Notes under the pieces: generated by a model | Databases searched by the model: none | Told to the model about the DNA's origin: nothing | What the model saw: the letters and a program-made list of their open reading frames with translations, nothing else | Translations under genes and position numbers: made by a program | From: Stutzerimonas stutzeri | GTDB lineage: Bacteria > Pseudomonadota > Gammaproteobacteria > Pseudomonadales > Pseudomonadaceae | DNA length: 64,000 bases | Direction: 5' to 3' | Assembly: GCF_024448715.1 (NCBI RefSeq) | Contig: NZ_JAMOHZ010000006.1 | Location: 1 to 64,000, forward strand | Shown here: piece by piece, positions 29,338-40,170 of the stretch | Numbering within the stretch: position 1 is the first letter of the stretch | How the letters are laid out: each line of letters begins with the position of its first letter

Positions 29338-30093
29338 ATGCGTCGCCCCTTGGTAGCTGGTAACTGGAAAATGAACGGTACCCGCGCCAGCGTCGCAGAG
29401 CTGATCGAGGCGCTCAGCCAGCAGGATATTCCTGCAGCAGTAGAAGTGGTGGTTTTTCCGTCCTTTCTGCATTTGGCTCAAGCTGTAAGTGGCTTGGACG
29501 GCGAGATGATTGCCGTCGGCGGCCAAGACTGTGCAGCAGAAGCTGGCTTCGGTGCTTTTACCGGTGAGCAGTCTGCTTCCCAGTTGGCTGATGTTGGTTG
29601 CGAATGGGTTCTGGTTGGTCACTCTGAACGACGCTTGATTTTGGGCGAAGGCGACGAGGTGGTGAGCAAGAAATTCGCCGCGGCGCTGGAGTGTGGAGTG
29701 ATCCCGGTGTTGTGTCTTGGTGAAACACTAGAGCAGCGCCAGGCGGGCCAGACATTGAAAGTGGTAGAGCGTCAGCTGGCTCGCATAATAGCTGATGTTG
29801 GAATTTCAGCCTTCGAGAAGGCGGTTGTGGCTTACGAGCCGGTCTGGGCAATTGGTTCCGGGCTTACGGCGACGCCGCAGCAGGCTCAGGAAGTGCATGC
29901 TGCCATTCGAGAGCAGTTGGCGCGTAAAGATCAGCGTATCGCTGAAGGCGTGCGTGTTTTGTACGGCGGCAGTGTGAAGGTGGAAAATGCCGCCGAGCTT
30001 TTCGGAATGGCAGATATCGACGGGGGGCTTATCGGTGGCGCCTCTCTGAAAGCGAATGATTTCGGCGCGATTTGTCGTGCCGCAGGGAACTGA
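29338..30093 (+). CDS. tpiA: Triosephosphate isomerase
   Basis: Interconverts dihydroxyacetone phosphate and glyceraldehyde-3-phosphate. The 251-residue TIM barrel has GNWKMNGT (catalytic Lys near 11), [13 protein letters not shown] (catalytic His near 96), the signature [11 protein letters not shown] (Glu near 168) and [13 protein letters not shown] near 210. GAGGTAAAGC precedes ATG 29338. Four bases separate it from secG, so the two are probably co-translated; tpiA-secG is the standard pair in pseudomonads. Confidence 0.98.
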
Positions 30094-30097
30094 TCAG

Positions 30098-30478
30098 ATG
30101 TTGCAGACTGTTGTGATTGTGGTGCATCTGCTGGTTGCCATTGGTGTGGTATTGCTTGTGCTACTGCAGCAGGGCAAGGGTGCGGATGCTGGTGCGTCTT
30201 TCGGTTCGGGTGCTTCGGCAACGGTTTTCGGAAGTCAAGGTTCCTCTACCTTTCTTAGTCGTTTTACTGCTATACTCGCCGGCGTTTTTTTTGTGACAAG
30301 TCTGGGGTTGGCGTTCTTTGCAACGCAGCAAGCTGATCAGATGTCACAAGTTGGCTTGCCGGATCCAGCAGTGCTGGAGGTGCCTGTCAGCAAGCCAGCG
30401 GTTGAGGATGTGCCTGTTCTGGAGTCCGCTCCGTCTGCGGATAGCACCGACGAGGTGCCGGAGATACAGAAGCAGTAG
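30098..30478 (+). CDS. secG: Preprotein translocase subunit SecG
   Basis: Inner membrane subunit of SecYEG that improves translocation. The 126-residue protein has two transmembrane helices ([20 protein letters not shown] and [20 protein letters not shown]). They are joined by the conserved loop [20 protein letters not shown]. The C-terminal tail is Pro/Val/Glu-rich, about 50 residues, and looks disordered. ATG 30098 is chosen because it opens directly into the first helix; an in-frame start at 30056 lies inside tpiA. The tRNA-Leu gene starts 10 bases after its stop. Confidence 0.96.
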
Positions 30479-30488
30479 CAAAGGTTTT

Positions 30489-30574
30489 GCCGAGGTGGTG
30501 GAATTGGTAGACACGCTACCTTGAGGTGGTAGTGGCCATAGGCTGTAGGGGTTCGAGTCCCCTCCTCGGTACCA
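30489..30574 (+). tRNA. tRNA-Leu (anticodon GAG)
   Basis: An 86-nt class II tRNA. The acceptor GCCGAGG pairs with CCTCGGT (one G-U). The anticodon arm is CTACC-TTGAGGT-GGTAG with anticodon GAG, the variable arm is long, and the T loop is TTCGAGT. CCA is encoded at 30572-30574. It reads CUC/CUU codons. Confidence 0.97.
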
Positions 30575-30583
30575 AACAAGTAG

Positions 30584-30610
30584 GCCCGCAGATGCGGGCT
30601 TTCTTGTTTT
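30584..30610 (+). terminator. Terminator after tRNA-Leu
   Basis: GCCCGCA, loop GA plus neighbours, TGCGGGC followed by TTTCTTGTTTT. It closes the tpiA-secG-tRNA-Leu transcript. Confidence 0.88.
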
Positions 30611-30620
30611 AGTGTTTTGG

Positions 30621-30649
30621 TTGACCTGTGATAGGTGCGGTCGTATAAT
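30621..30649 (+). promoter_or_regulatory. Sigma-70 promoter of tRNA-fMet
   Basis: TTGACC (30621-30626), 17-base spacer, perfect TATAAT (30644-30649). The predicted start is about 8 bases before the tRNA. It probably also drives part of the rimP-nusA-infB operon by readthrough, as metY-nusA does in E. coli. Confidence 0.9.
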
Positions 30650-30664
30650 TCGTGCCCAGTTTGA

Positions 30665-30741
<77 letters not shown>

Positions 30742-30751
30742 GTTGATGAAG

Positions 30752-30775
30752 AGCCCCTAAACAAAGGGGCTTTTT
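30752..30775 (+). terminator. Terminator after tRNA-fMet
   Basis: AGCCCCT, loop AAACAA, AGGGGCT running into five T. It lies 10 bases after the tRNA and limits readthrough into rimP. Confidence 0.85.
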
Positions 30776-30821
30776 ATTGGCTTCAAGCCAGGTCGCCGGC
30801 ATTTACAGGCGATCAATAGGG

Positions 30822-30842
30822 ATGGGCGTTTCGCCCATTTTT
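30822..30842 (+). terminator. Second terminator-like hairpin before rimP
   Basis: ATGGGCG, loop TTT, CGCCCAT with a T-rich tail (TTTTTCATTT), 30 bases before rimP. Two terminators in series before rimP-nusA suggest that readthrough into the operon is metered, perhaps by NusA itself. Confidence 0.7.
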
Positions 30843-30871
30843 CATTTGTACAGCATGCGCGAGGGACTTCG

Positions 30872-31330
30872 ATGTCGAGCAAGCTAGAACAGTTGCAGGC
30901 CTTGTTGGCCCCGGTGGTCGAGGCGCTTGGCTATCAGTGCTGGGGTATCGAATTCATTTCCCAGGGGCGGCATTCCTTGTTGAGGGTCTACATCGATCAT
31001 TCCAACGGGATTCTTGTCGATGACTGTGAAAAGGTCAGTCGCCAGCTCAGTGGTGTTCTCGACGTCGAAGATCCGATCAGCTCCGATTACACCCTTGAGG
31101 TGTCTTCGCCTGGTATGGATCGGCCACTGTTCACGCTTGAACAGTACGTTGCGCACGTGGGTGAACAGGTAAAAATAAAACTGCGCTCGCCCTTCGAGGG
31201 CCGGCGTAATTTCCAGGGTCTTCTCCGCGGGGTCGAAGAGCAGGATGTGGTGGTGCTGGTGGATGATCACGAGTATCTGTTGCCGATCGACATGATCGAC
31301 AAGACCAACATTCTTCCACGTTTTGAGTAA
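30872..31330 (+). CDS. rimP: Ribosome maturation factor RimP
   Basis: Assists assembly of the 30S subunit. The 152-residue protein has the N-terminal alpha/beta domain ([60 protein letters not shown]) and a C-terminal SH3-like barrel ([20 protein letters not shown]). It is the first coding gene of rimP-nusA-infB-rbfA-truB-rpsO-pnp. Start at ATG 30872, with GAGGGA about 6 bases before it. Confidence 0.97.
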
Positions 31331-31378
31331 AACGCGGATCCCGCGGACCCCAATGGATTGCGAAAGGCGAGGCGTACG

Positions 31379-32860
31379 ATGAGCAAAGAAGTACTGCTGG
31401 TGGTGGAGTCGGTATCCAACGAAAAAGGCGTACCGGCCGGTGTGATTTTCGAGGCATTGGAGCTGGCTTTGGCCACTGCTACCAAGAAGCGCTTCGAAGA
31501 CGAAGTTGACCTGCGTGTTGAAATCAATCGGCAGAATGGTAGCTATGAGACCTTCCGTCGTTGGACGATTGTCGAAGAAGAAGAATTCGACGATCCGGCA
31601 CACCAACTGACCGTCGACATGGAGCAGGCTCTCGAGGCCGGCGCTAAGATTGGGGACGTTCTCGAAGAAAAGATCGAATCCATCGAGTTCGGTCGTATCG
31701 CTGCGCAAACTGCCAAGCAAGTCATCGTGCAGAAGGTTCGTGAGGCTGAGCGTGCACAGGTGGTCGAGGCCTATCGCGATCGCCTGGGTGAAATCATCTC
31801 CGGTACGGTAAAGAAGGTCACCCGCGACAGTGTCATCGTTGATCTTGGCAATAACGCCGAGGCGTTGCTTGCACGCGAAGATATCATTGCGCGCGAAACC
31901 TTTCGTGTCGGCGCTCGAGTGCGAGCGCTGCTTCGTGAAATCCGCACAGAGAACCGCGGGCCGCAGCTGATTCTGTCGCGTACAGCGCCGCAAATGCTGA
32001 TCGAGTTGTTCCGTATCGAAGTGCCGGAAATCGCCGAAGGGCTTATCGAGGTAATGGGCGCATCGCGCGATCCAGGCTCGCGCGCCAAGATTGCCGTTCG
32101 TTCCAAAGACAAGCGCATCGATCCGCAAGGCGCCTGCATTGGCATGCGCGGCTCGCGGGTTCAAGCCGTCTCTGGAGAAATTGGTGGCGAGCGTGTCGAC
32201 ATTGTGCTGTGGGATGAGAATCCGGCGCAGTTCGTCATTAACGCAATGGCCCCAGCGGAAGTCGCTGCCATCATCGTCGACGAAGACGCCCATGCCATGG
32301 ATATCGCTGTTGGCGAAGACAACCTGGCTCAAGCGATCGGTCGTGGCGGGCAGAACGTGCGCCTCGCCAGCCAGCTGACAGGCTGGACGCTGAACGTGAT
32401 GACCGAGGCGGATATTCAGACCAAACAACAGGAAGAAACTGGCGACATCCTGCGCAATTTCATCGAAGAGCTGGATGTCGATGAGGAACTCGCGCAAGTA
32501 CTGGTCGAGGAAGGTTTCACTTCGCTCGAAGAAATCGCCTACGTCCCAATGGAGGAAATGCTCGGCATCGAAGGCTTCGACGAAGATATCGTCAATGAGC
32601 TGCGGACCCGCGCCAAGGATCGCCTGCTGACCAAGGCTATCGCAACGGAAGAAAAACTGGCAGACGCCCAGCCGGCCGAGGATTTGCTCGAGCTGGAAGG
32701 CATGGACAAGGAACTGGCGGTCGAGTTGGCGATGCGGGGTGTCATTACTCGCGAAGACTTGGCCGAGCAGTCGATTGACGACCTACTCGACATAGACGGC
32801 ATAAATCAAGAACGTGCCGGCAAGCTGATCATGGCCGCCCGAGCCCACTGGTTCGAGTAA
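31379..32860 (+). CDS. nusA: Transcription termination/antitermination factor NusA
   Basis: RNA polymerase-binding factor acting in pausing, termination and rRNA antitermination. The 493-residue protein has an N-terminal polymerase-binding domain (residues about 1-130), the S1 domain ([20 protein letters not shown] near 137), KH1/KH2 ([20 protein letters not shown] near 245; [18 protein letters not shown] near 320). Two C-terminal acidic repeats ([35 protein letters not shown]) follow, as in E. coli. ATG 31379 is preferred over 31358 as it matches the family start [10 protein letters not shown]. infB follows after 29 bases. Confidence 0.98.
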
Positions 32861-32889
32861 GTAATTTAGCGGCCTGAGGAGAGAGATGC

Positions 32890-35385
32890 ATGACGCAAGT
32901 CACGGTGAAAGAACTGGCCCAGGTGGTCGACACACCGGTCGAGCGACTGCTACAGCAGATGCGTGAGGCAGGACTGTCGCACACCAGCGCCGAGCAAGTA
33001 GTGACCGATAATGAAAAGCAGGCCCTGTTGGCGCACCTCAAGAGCAGCCACGGTGCCAAAGTGGATGAGCCGCGCAAGATTACCTTGCAGCGCAAAACCA
33101 CTACCAAGCTGAAGGTCGCTGGCAGCAAGACCATTAGCGTTGAAGTTCGCAAGAAAAAGACGTTCGTCAAGCGCAGCCCCGACGAGATCGAAGCCGAGAA
33201 GCAGCGCGAGCTGGAAGAGCAGCGCGCGGTGGAAGAGGCTGCTCGTCAGAAGGAAGCCGAGGAGGCGCGCCTGCGTGCCGAAGAGGAAGCGCGTCGTAAA
33301 GCCGAACTCGAAGCCAAGGCAGAAACTCCATCAGCTCCGCAGGCTACCGCAGAGCCGGTAGCTACCGTTGCCGCACCTGTCGCCCCGACCGCTCCGGTCG
33401 AGGAGCGCAAGAAGGACGAGCCTCGTCGCGCAGAAAAAACTCGCAGTGATGACGACGAGCGTCGTGACCGCAAACAGGCCCAGCATCGCCCATCGCTCAA
33501 GGCGAAGGCTCCGTTGTCACGTACTGTGCGCAGTGGTGAAGACGATGCCGATGGCTTCCGTCGTGGTGGTCGTGGCAAGTCAAAGCTGAAGAAGCGCAAC
33601 GCACATGGCTTCCAGAGCCCGACCGGCCCGGTCATTCGTGAAGTTGCGATTGGTGAAACCATCACCGTTGGCGATCTTGCGCAGAAGATGTCCGTTAAGG
33701 CTGCCGAAGTCATCAAGTTCATGTTCAAGATGGGCACTCCGGTGACTATCAACCAAGTGCTGGATCAGGAAACTGCCCAGCTGATCGCCGAAGAACTGGG
33801 TCACAAGGTCCGTCTGGTCAGCGATAACGCATTGGAAGAGCAACTGGCAGAACTGCTGAAGTTCGAAGGCGAGGCCATCACCCGTGCACCGGTAGTGACC
33901 GTGATGGGCCACGTCGACCACGGCAAAACCTCATTGCTCGACTATATTCGTCGCGCCAAGGTTGCTGCTGGCGAAGCTGGCGGAATCACTCAGCATATCG
34001 GTGCCTATCACGTTGAAACCGAGCGTGGCATGGTTACCTTCCTCGACACCCCAGGTCACGCTGCGTTTACCGCAATGCGTGCCCGCGGTGCTCAGGCGAC
34101 CGATATCGTAATTCTGGTCGTTGCGGCGGACGACGGGGTCATGCCGCAGACCATCGAAGCTGTTCAGCATGCGAAGGCCGCCGGTGTTCCGCTGGTCGTT
34201 GCTGTGAACAAGATCGACAAGCCGGGGGCTGATCTCGATCGTATCCGCAGCGAGCTGTCCGCACACGACGTCACATCCGAGGAGTGGGGCGGCGACACGC
34301 CGTTCGTGCCGGTATCGGCAAAGATGGGTACGGGTGTCGACGATCTGCTCGAAGCCGTTCTACTGCAGGCGGAAATTCTTGAGTTGACTGCAACCCCGTC
34401 CGCGCCTGGTCGTGGTGTGGTCGTCGAATCGCGCCTCGATAAGGGACGCGGCCCGGTGGCTACCGTGCTGGTTCAGGACGGTACGTTGCGTCAGGGCGAT
34501 ATGGTATTGGTCGGTTCGAACTACGGCCGCATCCGCGCCATGCTCGATGAAAATGGCAAGCCGATAAAAGAAGCAGGCCCGTCGATTCCGGTAGAAATCC
34601 TCGGTCTGGACGGCACACCGGACGCCGGCGATGAGATGAGCGTGCTGGCTGACGAGAAAAAAGCGCGCGAAGTCGCCCTTTTCCGTCAGGGCAAGTTCCG
34701 CGAAGTCAAACTGGCCCGTGCCCACGCTGGCAAGCTGGAAAACATTTTCGAGAACATGGGACAAGAAGAGAAGAAGACGCTCAACATCGTCCTCAAATCC
34801 GATGTCCGTGGCTCGCTTGAAGCGTTGCAGGGCTCGCTCGGGGGATTGGGTAACGACGAGGTACAGGTGCGTGTGATCGGCGGCGGTGTCGGTGGTATTA
34901 CCGAAAGCGACGCCAACTTGGCGCTGGCCTCCAACGCTGTACTGTTCGGCTTCAACGTCCGTGCCGATGCTGGCGCGCGAAAGATCGTCGAGCAGGAAGG
35001 TCTGGATCTGCGTTATTACAACGTGATCTACGACATTATCGAGGACGTTAAGAAAGCTCTCACTGGCATGCTCGGCAGTGACGTGCGAGAGAATATTCTC
35101 GGTGTGGCGGAAGTTCGCGATGTGTTCCGTTCGCCCAAGTTCGGTGCTGTTGCTGGCTGCATGGTCGTCGAGGGTATGGTTCACCGCAATCGTCCGATCC
35201 GCGTTCTGCGCGACGACGTGGTCATTTTCGAAGGCGAGCTGGAATCCCTGCGCCGCTTCAAGGATGACGTCGCCGAAGTACGTGCCGGCATGGAATGCGG
35301 TATCGCGGTGAAGAGCTACAACGACGTCAAGGCTGGCGACAAGATCGAAGTGTTCGAGAAAGTCGAAGTGGCTCGTTCGCTCTAA
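32890..35385 (+). CDS. infB: Translation initiation factor IF-2
   Basis: GTPase that places initiator tRNA on the 30S subunit and promotes subunit joining. The 831-residue protein has an N-terminal IF2-N module ([20 protein letters not shown]). A long charged linker rich in Glu/Arg/Ala, residues about 95-240, is likely helical or disordered. A second N module follows ([20 protein letters not shown]). The G domain has GHVDHGKTS (G1, near 342), DTPGHAAF (G3) and NKIDKPGAD (G4). Domains II-IV complete it, the last binding fMet-tRNA. An internal start producing a shorter form, known in E. coli, cannot be judged here. A repeat follows the stop. Confidence 0.98.
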
Positions 35386-35390
35386 ACAGC

Positions 35391-35504
35391 AGCTGCAAGC
35401 ATCAGGCGGCAAGTTTCAAGAGGCGGCTCCGGCTGCCGATTGAGCTTGCCGTTTGGCTTTGTGGTTGGAAATTTCATAGCTTGCAGCTTGCAGCTTGCAG
35501 CTTG
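35391..35504 (+). repeat. Heptad repeat and inverted arm between infB and rbfA
   Basis: Three exact tandem GCTTGCA units plus GCTTG occupy 35479-35504. An upstream arm AGCTGCAAGC (35391-35400) is complementary to GCTTGCAGCT and can pair in three registers (35479, 35486 or 35493). The GAGG serving rbfA (35504-35507) starts on the last base of the repeat. The middle part holds more GGCGGCAAG/CTTGCCG-type pieces of the same family. Confidence 0.8.
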
Positions 35505-35515
35505 AGGCGGATCTT

Positions 35516-35905
35516 ATGGCCAAAGAATTCAGCCGTACCCAGCGTATCGGCGACCAGATGCAGCGCGAGCTGGCGCTGTTGATTCAACGTGAAGTCAAGG
35601 ACCCGCGCCTGGGTCTAGTCACCATTACCGGTGTCGAGGTCAGTCGTGATCTTTCCCATGCCAAGGTGTTCATCACTATCATGGGCAAGGATGACGACGA
35701 GGATGCGGTCAAAGGCAATCTTCGGATTCTCAACGATGCCAGCGGTTTTTTAAGGATGCAGCTGGGTAAGGCGATGAAACTACGCACCGTGCCTCAATTG
35801 CATTTCAATTACGACGCCAGCGTTCGTCGCGGTGTGGAGCTGACGTCGCTTATCGAGCGTGCTGTCGCGGAAGATCGCAAACACAGCGATGACGGTGGAG
35901 AATAA
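35516..35905 (+). CDS. rbfA: Ribosome-binding factor A
   Basis: Cold-shock-associated 30S maturation factor that binds near the 5' end of 16S rRNA. The 129-residue protein is a single KH-like domain: [60 protein letters not shown] and [23 protein letters not shown] 35516 has GAGG 8 bases upstream. That SD directly abuts the heptad repeat, so repeat length or pairing could affect translation. truB follows after 3 bases. Confidence 0.97.
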
Positions 35906-35908
35906 CGT

Positions 35909-36826
35909 TTGGCACAGGTAAAACGCGTTCGCCGCGCAGTCAGCGGCATCATTCTCCTCGATAAGCCCCGCGGTTTTAGCTCCAATGCAGCGTTACAGAA
36001 GGTTCGCTGGTTGCTCAACGCCGAGAAAGCCGGCCATACGGGTAGCCTCGATCCGCTGGCTACCGGCGTGCTGCCATTGTGTTTCGGTGAGGCAACCAAG
36101 TTTTCTCAGTACCTACTAGGCGCCGACAAGAGCTATGAAACATTGGCGCAGCTTGGTGTCACCACTACGACCGCCGATGCGGAAGGCGAGGTGCTCGCAC
36201 GCAAGCCGGTAACGATCACCCAGGCGCAGCTCGAAGCAGTACTTCCGCAGTTTCGTGGAGACATCCAGCAGGTGCCGCCGATGTATTCGGCGCTCAAGCG
36301 CGATGGCCAACCACTGTACAAGCTGGCGCGTGCAGGAGAGGTGGTGGAGCGCGAGCCGCGTTCTGTTACCATTGCGAGCTTGGATTTGCTTTCGTTGGAA
36401 GCGGATCAGGTCCGCTTTGCCGTGGCGTGCAGCAAAGGCACCTATATTCGAACGCTGGTCGAGGATATCGGGCACGAGCTGGGTTGCGGTGCACACGTGA
36501 CCGAGCTGCGTCGAACCCAGGCTGGGCCTTTCCACTTGGCTCAGACAGTCAGCCTCGAGGAACTCGAACGAGTACATGCCGAGGGCGGTGCGGACGCGGT
36601 CGACGCCTTTCTAAAGCCGATCGATAGCGGGCTCGAGCACTGGCCGCTGCTGCAGCTGTCAGAGCACAGCGCCTTTTATTGGCTGCATGGCCAGCCGGTA
36701 CGTGCGCCGGAAGCGCCGAAGTTCGGCATGTTGCGGGTACAGGATCATAATGGTCGCTTCATTGGCATCGGTGAAGTGAGTGAAGACGGGCGAATTGCGC
36801 CGCGTCGGCTGATTCGGTCGGAATGA
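35909..36826 (+). CDS. truB: tRNA pseudouridine(55) synthase TruB
   Basis: Forms pseudouridine 55 in the T loop of tRNAs. The 305-residue protein has [20 protein letters not shown], the catalytic motif [20 protein letters not shown] (nucleophilic Asp near 48), the Tyr-containing [20 protein letters not shown], and [20 protein letters not shown] near 180. A PUA-like C-terminus ends [11 protein letters not shown]. The start is TTG 35909 with GGAG 8 bases upstream; it lies 3 bases after rbfA, so coupling is likely. The stop sits at the foot of a long inverted repeat leading to rpsO. Confidence 0.96.
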
Positions 36827-36919
36827 CCGATACGCAGTGCGCCTCAAAGCGTGCCGCGTTACGAGGATGGCTGTCGGCAGGCACGGTCATTCCTTATTTA
36901 AAACACGGGACACGTCCCG
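36820..36919 (+). promoter_or_regulatory. Structured leader between truB and rpsO
   Basis: GGAATGACCG (36820-36829) is exactly complementary to CGGTCATTCC (36884-36893). Inside, GTGCC (36851-36855) pairs with GGCAC (36880-36884), so the 3' strand is continuous while the 5' strand has a bulge of about 21 bases. T-rich TTATTT follows. A second hairpin CGGGA-CACG-TCCCG (36906-36919) lies just before the rpsO SD. This may be an S15 autoregulatory leader, a partial terminator, or both; pairing is seen, function inferred. Confidence 0.55.
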
Positions 36920-36943
36920 GCCTGTTCATATAAGGAGCCCATC

Positions 36944-37213
36944 ATGGCACTTAGCGTTGAAGAAAAATCCCAGATCGTTAACGAGTACAAGCAAGCTGAA
37001 GGCGATACCGGTTCTCCGGAAGTGCAGGTTGCCCTGCTGACCGCCAACATCAATAAGCTGCAAGGTCACTTCAAGGCCAACGGTAAGGACCACCACTCCC
37101 GTCGTGGCCTGATCCGTATGGTCAACCAGCGTCGTAAGCTGCTGGATTACCTGAAGGGCAAGGACACCACTCGTTACAGCGCCCTAATCGGTCGTCTGGG
37201 TCTGCGTCGTTAA
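36944..37213 (+). CDS. rpsO: 30S ribosomal protein S15
   Basis: Primary binding protein of the 16S rRNA central domain; represses its own mRNA in several bacteria. The 89-residue protein is full length: [40 protein letters not shown] (rRNA-binding helix region), [20 protein letters not shown] and the C-terminal [18 protein letters not shown] lies 7-12 bases before ATG 36944, just after a small hairpin. It is followed by a long inverted repeat, then pnp, as in E. coli, where this spacer is an RNase III control point. Confidence 0.99.
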
Positions 37214-37218
37214 GACGT

Positions 37219-37305
37219 AGCGAGCTTGAAGCCGGGAGCTGGAAGCTTGAAGTTGTATGTCGGAGGAGTTCTCCGCTTCCAGCTTCGGGCTTCCAGCTTT
37301 TTGGC
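37219..37305 (+). repeat. Long imperfect inverted repeat between rpsO and pnp
   Basis: GAGCTTGAAGCCGGGAGCTG (37221-37240) and the following GAAGC pair, over about 25 bases with few mismatches, with GCTTCCAGCTTCGGGCTTCC (37275-37294) and neighbouring AGCT. The loop is about 28 bases and a short T run follows. It belongs to the dispersed AGCTTGAAG/GCTTGCAG family and could act as a partial terminator or RNase III substrate for the downstream pnp message. Confidence 0.7.
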
Positions 37306-37383
37306 TTTTGCAGGAGAGATCGGGTCCGATTCCCGCCGCTCCCGCCGATTTCCCCCAAAGGCAATAGAGAGAAGGAAAACACC

Positions 37384-39489
37384 GTGAACCCGGTAATCAA
37401 GAAATTCCAGTTCGGTCAATCGACCGTTACCCTCGAGACTGGCCGTATCGCCCGTCAAGCCTCCGGCGCAGTGCTGGTCACCGTTGACGAGGACGTCACC
37501 GTATTGGTGGCCGTCACCGGCGCCAAGACAGCAGACCCAAGCAAGGGCTTTTTCCCGCTTTCAGTTCATTATCAGGAAAAGACCTACGCAGCCGGCAAGA
37601 TCCCTGGCGGCTTCTTTAAGCGCGAAGCGCGTCCATCCGAGAAGGAAACTCTGACCTCGCGACTGATCGATCGCCCGATTCGTCCGCTGTTCCCGGAAGG
37701 TTTCCAGAACGAAGTGCAAGTTATCTGCACCGTCGTGTCGACCAGCAAGAAGACCGATCCGGACATCGCTGCGATGATCGGTACCTCCGCTGCGCTGGCC
37801 ATTTCCGGCATTCCGTTCAACGGTCCGATCGGTGCCGCGCGCGTCGCCTTCCACCCGGAAACTGGCTATCTGCTGAACCCGACTTACGAGCAGCTCAAGG
37901 CATCCAGCCTGGACATGGTCGTCGCGGGTACCAAAGACGCCGTGCTGATGGTCGAGTCCGAAGCCAAAGAGCTGACCGAAGACCAGATGCTGGGCGCCGT
38001 ATTGTTCGCCCATGACGAATTCCAGGCTGTGATCCAGGCTGTAACCGAGCTGGCTGCTGAAGCCGCCAAGCCGACCTGGGACTGGCAACCGAAGGCGGAA
38101 AACACGGCTCTGCTCACTGCCATTCGTAGCGAGTTCGGCGAGGCGATTTCCCAAGCCTACACCATTATCATCAAGCAGGATCGCTATGCGCGCCTGGGTG
38201 AGCTGCGTGACCAGATCGTCGCCAAATTCTCTGGCCAAGAAGGCCAGCCTTCTGCCGGCGAAGTGAAAGACGCTTTCGGCGAAATCGAATACCGTACCGT
38301 GCGCGAGAACATCGTCAACGGCAAGCCGCGTATCGACGGTCGTGACACCCGTACTGTACGTGGCTTGAACATCGAAGTCGGCGTGCTCGACAAGACCCAC
38401 GGTTCGGCGCTATTTACCCGTGGCGAAACTCAGGCGCTGGTGGTTGCTACCCTGGGTACTGCGCGTGACGCCCAACTGCTCGACACGCTCGAAGGCGAGA
38501 AGAAAGACCCCTTCATGCTGCATTACAACTTCCCGCCGTACTCGGTGGGCGAGTGTGGACGCATGGGCGCTACCGGTCGCCGCGAAATTGGCCATGGCCG
38601 TCTGGCCCGTCGCTCCGTTTCTGCCATGCTGCCGAGCGCCGACGAGTTCCCGTACACCATCCGTGTGGTGTCGGAAATCACCGAATCCAACGGCTCCAGC
38701 TCCATGGCTTCCGTCTGCGGTGCCTCCCTGGCCCTGATGGACGCCGGTGTGCCGATGAAGGCGCCGGTGGCCGGTATCGCCATGGGTCTGGTCAAGGAAG
38801 GCGAGAAGTTTGCCGTACTGACCGACATCCTCGGTGACGAAGATCACCTGGGCGACATGGACTTCAAGGTGGCCGGTACCGCCAAGGGCGTCACCGCGCT
38901 GCAGATGGACATCAAGATCCAAGGCATCACCGAAGAGATCATGGAGCAGGCGCTGGAGCAGGCGCTGGAAGCGCGTCTGAACATCCTTGGTCAGATGAAT
39001 CAGGTCATCGCGCAGTCGCGTACCGAGCTGTCGGCGAACGCACCGACCATGATTGCGATGAAGATCGACCAGGACAAGATCCGCGATGTTATCGGAAAGG
39101 GCGGCGCCACTATCCGTAGCATTTGCGAAGAAACCAAAGCCTCGATCGATATCGAAGACGACGGCTCGATCAAGATCTTCGGCGAAACCAAGGAAGCTGC
39201 CGAGGCCGCCAAGCAGCGCGTACTGGGTATCACTGCCGAGGCCGAGATCGGTAAGATCTATGTTGGAAAGGTGGAGCGCATCGTCGACTTCGGTGCCTTC
39301 GTCAATATCCTGCCGGGCAAGGACGGTCTGGTGCACATTTCGATGCTGAGCGATCAGCGCGTCGAGAAAGTCACCGACGTGCTCAAGGAAGGCCAGGAAG
39401 TGAAGGTTCTGGTATTGGACGTCGATAACCGCGGTCGTATCAAGCTATCAATCAAGGATGTGGCAGCTGCCGAAGCCTCCGGCGCCTAA
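37384..39489 (+). CDS. pnp: Polynucleotide phosphorylase
   Basis: 3'-5' phosphorolytic exoribonuclease and degradosome component. The 701-residue protein has two RNase PH domains (residues about 5-215 and 310-545; active-site areas [15 protein letters not shown] and [19 protein letters not shown]). A helical linker lies between them. The KH domain is [18 protein letters not shown] near 565, and the S1 domain is [20 protein letters not shown] near 625. The start is GTG 37384 with GAGAAGGA just upstream; the N-terminus matches the family. A terminator follows at 39514. Confidence 0.98.
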
Positions 39490-39513
39490 ATGCAACGGCG
39501 ATAGCAATGAAAG

Positions 39514-39537
39514 AAAGGACCCTTCGGGGTCCTTTTT
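39514..39537 (+). terminator. Terminator of the rpsO-pnp transcript
   Basis: AAAGGACCC, TTCG tetraloop, GGGTCCTTT and two more T: a perfect 9-bp stem 24 bases after the pnp stop. Confidence 0.93.
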
Positions 39538-39600
39538 CATTCCTCAGTATTCACGGACCACCCTTTTATGAAAACGGGTGTCGCGCTGGCGGCATCTGGG

Positions 39601-39620
39601 TTGCAAGTTGCAAGTTGCAC
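39601..39620 (+). repeat. Short TTGCAAG tandem repeat
   Basis: TTGCAAG occurs twice in tandem and a third time in part (TTGCA), in the gap after pnp. It is another trace of the GCTTGCA heptad family, here without an inverted partner. The rest of the 39538-39714 gap shows nothing else recognisable. Confidence 0.6.
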
Positions 39621-39714
39621 GCTTCGCTGAGGCCGAACATGCAGTGTGCTAGTGGCTTTCAGCTACTGCTTTTATTAAGTTATTGATTTTAAAGTACATT
39701 TTTTGAGTAAAAAA

Positions 39715-39729
39715 TGGCATGGTGCTTGC
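39715..39729 (+). promoter_or_regulatory. Sigma-54 promoter of the BON-domain gene
   Basis: TGGCATGGTGCTTGC matches the -24/-12 consensus TGGCAC-N5-TTGC with the required GG-N10-GC spacing. The predicted start near 39741 leaves a 55-base leader. The activator is unknown. Confidence 0.75.
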
Positions 39730-39795
39730 GATGTTACCTGTGAATCTGCGGTCGGAGTGATGCCGCAGACATTTGAAGAAAACAGGAGTGCCACT

Positions 39796-40170
39796 ATGAA
39801 TATGATCCAGAACTCTCTTACCGCTGCTGCCGCCGTCGCTGCGCTGAGCTTGCCTATGACAGGCGTTGCGTTCGCTGACACCACCCCAGCGCTGGATAAC
39901 ACTGATACCGTCATGCTGGCCACGAACGACACTATGGATAAGGCTGGCGATGCTGTTTCCGATACCTGGATCACCACCAAGGTGAAGTCGTCCCTGCTGG
40001 CCGAAGATGCCACTCCCGGTATGGATATCGAAGTAGAGACCAAAGATGGTGTGGTGTCGCTGTCCGGCACTGTCGCAACTGAGGCCGAGCGTGAAATGGC
40101 CGTCAACAAGGCCAAAGCTGTGAAAGGCGTCCGCGACGTTTCTGCGGATGGCCTAAAAACTGTCGACTAA
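39796..40170 (+). CDS. Periplasmic BON-domain protein (OsmY-like)
   Basis: A 124-residue exported protein. The signal peptide has the hydrophobic core LTAAAAVAALSLPMTGVAFA with likely cleavage before DTTPALD (about residue 28). The mature part has one BON domain: DTWITTKVKSSLLAEDATPG, DIEVETKDGVVSLSGTVATE, AVNKAKAVKGVRDVSADGL. BON proteins such as OsmY bind phospholipid surfaces and help under osmotic or envelope stress; the role here is inferred. GGAG lies 8 bases before ATG 39796. The sigma-54 type promoter suggests control by an enhancer-binding protein, and a strong terminator follows, so it is monocistronic. Confidence 0.9.
   Translation: MNMIQNSLTAAAAVAALSLPMTGVAFADTTPALDNTDTVMLATNDTMDKAGDAVSDTWITTKVKSSLLAEDATPGMDIEVETKDGVVSLSGTVATEAEREMAVNKAKAVKGVRDVSADGLKTVD

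Follow-up and report, generated by a model that had tools for sequence, protein, structure and literature searches.

Does a tandem repeat that runs into the Shine-Dalgarno (SD) sequence of a gene have to be a switch of that gene? The spacer between infB and rbfA of Stutzerimonas stutzeri raises this question. We analysed a stretch of 64,000 nucleotides from this species (contig NZ_JAMOHZ010000006.1, positions 1 to 64,000), hereafter the window, whose nearest named relatives by rbfA belong to Stutzerimonas. A preliminary description of the locus had proposed that an array of heptads in this spacer exerts a phase-variable or temperature-sensitive control on rbfA through changes in its pairing register or copy number. 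The argument turns on the following features.

35383-35385, + strand: infB stop codon TAA (sequence)
35386-35515: infB-rbfA spacer, between the infB stop and the rbfA ATG
35391-35400, + strand: post-stop (5') arm AGCTGCAAGC, predicted partner of the array; the consensus of 22 relatives pairs it with the stem-loop foot instead
35402-35456, + strand: conserved stem-loop downstream of infB, terminator- or attenuator-like (folding, covariation, comparison of 80 spacers)
35450-35461, + strand: imperfect T-rich tail of the stem-loop, CGTTTGGCTTTG (sequence)
35478-35504, + strand: distal (3') heptad array, AGCTTGC x 3.9, perfect, AGCTTGCAGCTTGCAGCTTGCAGCTTG (Tandem Repeats Finder, shuffles)
35501-35507, + strand: last heptad, CTTGAGG, holding the rbfA SD GAGG at 35504-35507 (sequence, alignment)
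35516-35905, + strand: rbfA coding sequence, 129 aa, ATG at 35516 (open reading frame, homology)

The heptad array is far above chance expectation. Tandem Repeats Finder reports 27 nt of period 7 (3.9 copies, 100% match), made of three full GCTTGCA units from 35479 followed by GCTTG. Its run of 20 matches at lag 7 was reached in none of 10,000 dinucleotide shuffles of the infB-rbfA spacer, and 60 shuffles of the whole window gave no lag-7 run longer than 11. The sequence and Tandem Repeats Finder thus agree with the preliminary description that the array and the arm at 35391-35400 are real. Since GAGG occupies 35504-35507 and the array ends at 35504, the first base of the SD is also the last base of the array, just as had been described.

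The spacer RNA has a better predicted fold than shuffled versions of it (z = -3.5), an equally good one arising in 1 of 200 shuffles. In the best fold of the window the arm pairs with the array, and the SD region pairs with sequence on its own 3' side. The predicted ensemble contains three arm-array registers (probabilities near 0.09, 0.67 and 0.09), in keeping with the claim that each of the three units can pair with the upstream arm. "Slipping" is therefore a fair description of the energy model, yet the predicted slipping stops before the SD: the three registers end by 35502, and a fourth register lying over the SD has a predicted probability of 0.0. The prediction thus goes against the idea that a shift of register would carry the edge of the stem to the SD.

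Copy number does differ between relatives. Heptads were counted by a strict rule that includes the SD-bearing heptad, with one genome per species, so that the counts compare species alone. The unit number is 4 in the window, in G013 and in G002, and 5 in G008 and in S. stutzeri TS44; it is 4 at the loci L093, L102 and L119, 3 at L088, L089 and L091, 2 at L128, and 0 at L100 and L085, where related sequence is present although the strict rule finds no unit. An alignment of 22 orthologous infB-rbfA spacers (A1) has gap blocks of 7 nt in the array region. These blocks and the differing counts together indicate that copy number evolves between species by whole units, so the premise of copy-number change holds in the form of 7-nt steps between species (2 to 5 units). 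Such changes would most simply arise by replication slippage. In the leader of S. stutzeri TS44 (L010/L101) the SD heptad CTTGAGG itself is present three times, giving three SD-like sites before rbfA.

Alignment A1 leaves out the spacers of type B (see below) and the G008 locus (L007), which entered the folding of natural leaders described next; L003 is absent, but its spacer equals that of the included L102, and L090, L091 and L101 were removed as identical copies. The accessibility of the SD was predicted by partition-function folding of 14 natural leaders at 5, 15, 25, 37 and 45 C. Among these 14 leaders it bears no relation to the heptad unit number, so that prediction lends no support to a control of the SD by copy number. 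In the window, the predicted probability that the SD is unpaired rises mildly, from 0.28 (5 C) to 0.34 (37 C) and 0.42 (45 C). Over the whole temperature range the predicted accessibility hardly changes in most of the 14 leaders; it rises strongly in L128 (0.01 to 0.50) and L091 (0.15 to 0.50) and moderately in L102 (0.16 to 0.33). On these predictions an RNA thermometer at rbfA was rejected as a consistent property of the 14 leaders, and what the model leaves of the suggested temperature control is the predicted opening in those three. RNAalifold also predicts a hairpin of 4 pairs that includes some bases of the SD and whose pairs persist in 20 to 22 of the 22 sequences, so that structure may have a modest effect on rbfA translation.

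Which part of the spacer, then, is conserved as structure? In A1 the inner stem is paired in 90.0% of cells. It contains 23 double-changed cells against 9.3 in shuffles, and its covariation score is 0.187 against 0.133, neither value being matched in any of 500 shuffles; of the five covariation measures, the number of further pair types was no better than chance (reached in 225 of 500 shuffles). When the partner strand is slid by 1-3 columns, pairing falls from 90% to 26-46%. As the shuffles ignore the relatedness of the sequences, we take the inner-stem statistics as support and not as a probability. The arm-array helix keeps its pairs in 86.6% of cells, but its covariation is not above that of shuffles of the same alignment (score reached in 135 of 500), and it was set aside as a conserved structure.

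The hairpin itself reaches well beyond the heptad-bearing spacers. All 80 named infB-rbfA spacers are predicted to form a hairpin with 11 or more pairs, and 78 of them have a folding z below -2; the rbfA stem-loop is also common to relatives with hardly any heptads. A stable hairpin after the infB stop is therefore present, both as a covarying stem and as a prediction in 80 of 80 spacers. The persistent element is this hairpin between infB and rbfA, whose outer arms take the form of heptads in one group. Because its T-rich tail is broken (TTTGGCTTTG) and a consensus terminator scan does not list the 35402-35456 hairpin as a terminator, we speak of termination as a putative function.

We consider it fairly probable that the locus is a gene-end or attenuator-type hairpin whose distal heptad arm drifts by replication slippage. 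The stem-loop would end, attenuate, process or protect the infB part of the transcript; transcription reading past the stem-loop would continue into rbfA; and the distal arm would gain or lose whole units as the polymerase slips during replication.

The strongest rival is an attenuator with alternative arm pairing, in which the arm at 35391-35400 would pair either with the foot of the stem or with the array, and events on the nascent transcript would decide readthrough into rbfA. In the RNAalifold consensus of the 22 relatives the arm indeed pairs with the stem foot (columns 10-18 with 78-86), whereas the best fold of the window pairs it with the array, and both pairings are kept in most of the 22 sequences. 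A precedent, and one of the closest parallels in print, is the candidate attenuator based on BIMEs upstream of rbfA, gatY and cvpA in Enterobacteria, for which an exaptation is proposed (PMC2965389). Like the present locus, it combines a dispersed intergenic repeat with a terminator-like hairpin upstream of rbfA; unlike it, the repeats here are heptads and the bacterial group is another, and possible anti-terminators are drawn for the BIME in that paper. Neither arm pairing shows clear covariation, however (the stem-foot pairing has one both-sides change among seven pairs), the model lacks a known signal or effector, and the terminator-like stem comes before the array instead of after it. We regard this attenuator as unlikely, and continue with the drifting gene-end hairpin.

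The same heptad occurs at many other places. The 13-mer AGCTTGMAGCTTG has 18 overlapping matches in 10 arrays of the window's own genome, with none in a reversed control. The 19-mer GCTTGMAGCTTGMAGCTTG, which corresponds to arrays of at least 19 nt, was found in 20 of the 56 congeneric genomes, G008 having 153 overlapping matches and G322 having 202. Across the order, a 20-mer of perfect units was found in 12 of 293 genomes and 7 of 118 genera. A 400-kb sample of that first genome, the window's own, showed no intergenic excess of matches at lag 7 (0.2568, inside the spread of the other lags), which goes against a general period-7 signal there; this sample contains 2 intergenic arrays of at least 17 nt, heptads being few in this genome.

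These arrays have a preferred position. We compared 61 arrays, oriented as TGCAAGC, from 52 loci hand-picked from the match lists together with earlier ones. The start of the array lies within 7 nt of a same-strand stop codon of a long reading frame in 28 of the 61 and within 22 nt in 35, the printed stop-to-array distances carrying an offset of 8, and short loci that could show no stop (L028, L031 and L032 among them) being counted as misses. The opposite end of the array is near a stop codon in 6 (within 7 nt) and 8 (within 22 nt) of the 61. Clusters with both orientations, by a two-unit rule, were present at 12 of the 52 loci. At three loci with matching flanks (L204, L216, L215) the array is followed by a GC-rich stem and a T-run. 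The heptad is thus a dispersed unit of the genus, often found immediately behind stop codons. The window's arm at 35391, which follows closely on the infB stop, conforms to this gene-end layout. The longest array, a perfect one of 37.6 units (L218 1458-1721, in G024), has its nearest upstream same-strand stop 189 nt away.

A heptad that recurs at other genes, with more than half of the sampled arrays after stops, is not what one would expect of a dedicated rbfA switch. For a control of rbfA by register or copy number, whether phase-variable or sensitive to temperature, speak the three predicted registers, the differing unit numbers between species and the predicted opening of the SD in L128, L091 and, moderately, L102. 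Against it stand the end of all three registers before the SD, a predicted accessibility that hardly responds to temperature in most leaders and does not track unit number, and now the presence of the heptad at many other genes. An array of 3.9 units is also short for a contingency locus. Phase variation at rbfA is unlikely, and control of this kind as a whole appears to us very improbable. A tempting reading is hereby corrected: a slippery repeat beside a Shine-Dalgarno sequence need not be a switch.

At some heptad loci the array precedes a shared core of about 52 nt. Twenty elements share this segment after their 5' array, with the consensus GCAAGCnTAATCAGTGTGnnGGnCGGCGCCnAAAnCCCGTCAAGCnCTTT, part of which was preselected since the letters CAAGC and CAG..TG served as selection criteria for the element sets A2 and A3. 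From 20 copies, many of them taken from G008 and G322, we built a sequence-only model, R1, with 52 positions. At E-values up to 0.01 and with strict filters, R1 finds the core in 18 of 56 congeneric genomes, with 43 matches in G008, 19 in G322, 15 in G013 and 3 in the window's own genome, these counts including the training sequences. In an order-level sample at E-values up to 0.001, the core was found in 2 of 145 genomes, the own one (2 matches) and G066 of another family (6 matches). In the draft genome G013, several core matches fall within the first bases of contigs (C39, C69, C160 and others), as expected if the repeat breaks the assembly. Rfam gives no hit at 17 loci carrying the dispersed element.

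The window has no R1 match at E-values up to 1. Hence the rbfA locus has heptad and layout in common with the dispersed family but lacks a match to its core, and a dispersed core at rbfA was rejected. Could the rbfA arms nevertheless be what is left of a miniature mobile element, a copy of the dispersed heptad element that was inserted and then lost its core? The same heptad, the start just after a stop and the inverted arms would agree with such an origin. So would the lineage-specific distribution of the family: G009, which shares 90% DNA identity with G008 over two compared loci, has no R1 match at E-values up to 0.01, against 43 in G008, and the array at L199 1496-1680 of G008 is clearly missing at the matching site of G009 (L267). 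At a second site the array is also absent from G009, but the alignment is poor. Both G009 sites, however, contain a stretch resembling part of the core with chance-level scores (E-values 0.8 and 0.42). These weak stretches suggest that the arrays may have grown around an older core or been lost from it; growth around an older core is as likely as insertion, and the comparison does not bear out a clean mobile-element insertion in G008. The missing core in the window and the stem-loop of relatives with hardly any heptads, which suggests that the arms may have grown in place, likewise tell against a remnant at rbfA. We judge the remnant quite improbable, and retain the hairpin with a drifting distal arm.

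The spacer as a whole has been replaced repeatedly in the family. Spacer types were read by simple sequence rules in the best 80 named rbfA loci, all 80 being readable. Type A, the window's kind, with stems like GGCAAGC...GCTTGCCGTT, accounts for 23; type B (AGCTGG...CCAGCTT and similar) for 19; type P (CGCCCGG...GGGCGTTTG) for 37; and one spacer is of another type. On a tree of the infB and rbfA coding sequences these types need at least 15 changes, and the well-supported branches alone force 6 changes each for A and B and 3 for P; this tree leaves 17 inner branches open, and infB and rbfA may themselves recombine. Both flanks reach 88% identity or more in 132 pairs of loci, of which 25 combine different spacer types. 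The spacers of such different-type pairs are 0.48-0.53 identical, against a shuffled baseline with a mean of 0.50 and a highest value of 0.61; the median identity of same-type pairs is 0.90.

The clearest single case is Pseudomonas mendocina PSB00032 (L119). Compared with L120 and L121, it shows 96-97% identity over the last 1000 nt of infB and the 384 nt of rbfA (96-98% over the flanks), and its spacer (1074-1203) is unrelated to theirs (identity 0.48, the level of shuffles). Over the 150 nt that precede its start codon, L119 matches S. stutzeri 24a75 (L102) with 89% identity, the affinity changing close to the stop and start codons. By sequence comparison, this locus carries a Stutzerimonas-type spacer between lineage-typical genes. 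It resembles the switched intergenic regions, or horizontal regulatory transfer, described in PMC5890482, in that an unrelated spacer lies between near-identical genes, incongruent with the gene tree; unlike there, the replacement here is seen across the family, at a translation operon, and in lineages other than the window's.

Replacement or fast turnover is not peculiar to infB-rbfA, as a control with rpsO-pnp of the same operon, for which 15 of 30 loci could be parsed, showed a similar bimodality: 24 of 53 pairs with both flanks at least 88% identical have a spacer identity below 0.6, as do 12 of 67 infB-rbfA pairs among 24 congeneric genomes. Despite the repeated replacement of the sequence, a hairpin is predicted whatever the spacer type. 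The locus is thus a spacer of a core translation operon in which a hairpin persists while its sequence gets replaced.

A more general view may tentatively be put forward, though we think it rather doubtful as a whole. The heptad loci of Pseudomonadales might form a family of gene-end elements, often placed immediately behind stop codons, in which a core or terminator is enclosed by mutually complementary heptad arms, (TGCAAGC)n ... (GCTTGNA)n, whose length varies freely. Their arrays would expand in bursts within single genomes, and at infB-rbfA the heptads would have joined the attenuator of an essential operon and been exchanged between genera together with it. Such a repeat family could serve to test the origin of short tandem repeats at gene ends. 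No description of a heptad family with TGCAAGC arms was found for Pseudomonas or Stutzerimonas in the open-access literature, which is weak evidence of novelty as subscription papers lay mostly outside the scope of the search.

The kinds of element concerned are already known: dispersed heptamer repeats, MITE-like gene-end repeats and switched spacers. Among long simple repeats, heptanucleotides are reported to be the most frequent class in the majority of genomes (Mrazek 2007, cited in PMC4679880). Intergenic heptamers GGGAATC of Xanthomonas and GGGGA(C/T)T of Nostoc are reported in PMC4692102, whose authors judged a function like phase variation unlikely for those of Xanthomonas; beside the BIME candidate, the Xanthomonas heptamers are the closest published parallel. 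The Xanthomonas repeats are dispersed like ours, with 2 to 26 copies in X. campestris, and inverted cases are noted there. The Xanthomonas and Nostoc heptamers are G-rich and quadruplex-forming; in contrast, the inverted arms here can pair and many arrays start after stops. The TAACTGA direct repeats of marine Beggiatoaceae and others, proposed as post-transcriptional sites, are likewise heptamers often just upstream of starts, and in a pair of Cyanothece strains the repeats differ mostly by 7-nt steps (PMC4679880). In the Beggiatoaceae genome they usually precede starts, whereas more than half of the arrays sampled here follow stops. The MITE-like intergenic families of Pseudomonas fluorescens (R0, R2 and others; PMC2718517) share with our elements the inverted repeats around a core, the hairpins, a tail-to-tail bias and uneven numbers between strains; their inverted arms are fixed, whereas the arms here are heptad arrays of variable length.

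Several further features of the window were observed in passing. Within positions 30000-40000, Rfam at its gathering score finds two tRNAs and an S15 leader and no family at the heptad feature. The S15 leader (36885-37000) lies upstream of rpsO. The rpsO-pnp spacer (37214-37320) contains a heptad-like hairpin, GAGCTTGAAGCCGGGAGCTGGAAGC ... GCTTCCAGCTTCGGGCTTCCAGCTTTTTGG, shortly after the rpsO stop; in the 15 parsed relatives, the front part of this spacer exists in two unrelated forms and its end is similar. A third heptad array, GTTGCAA x 2.9 at 39600-39619, is located downstream of pnp, after a terminator-like stem.
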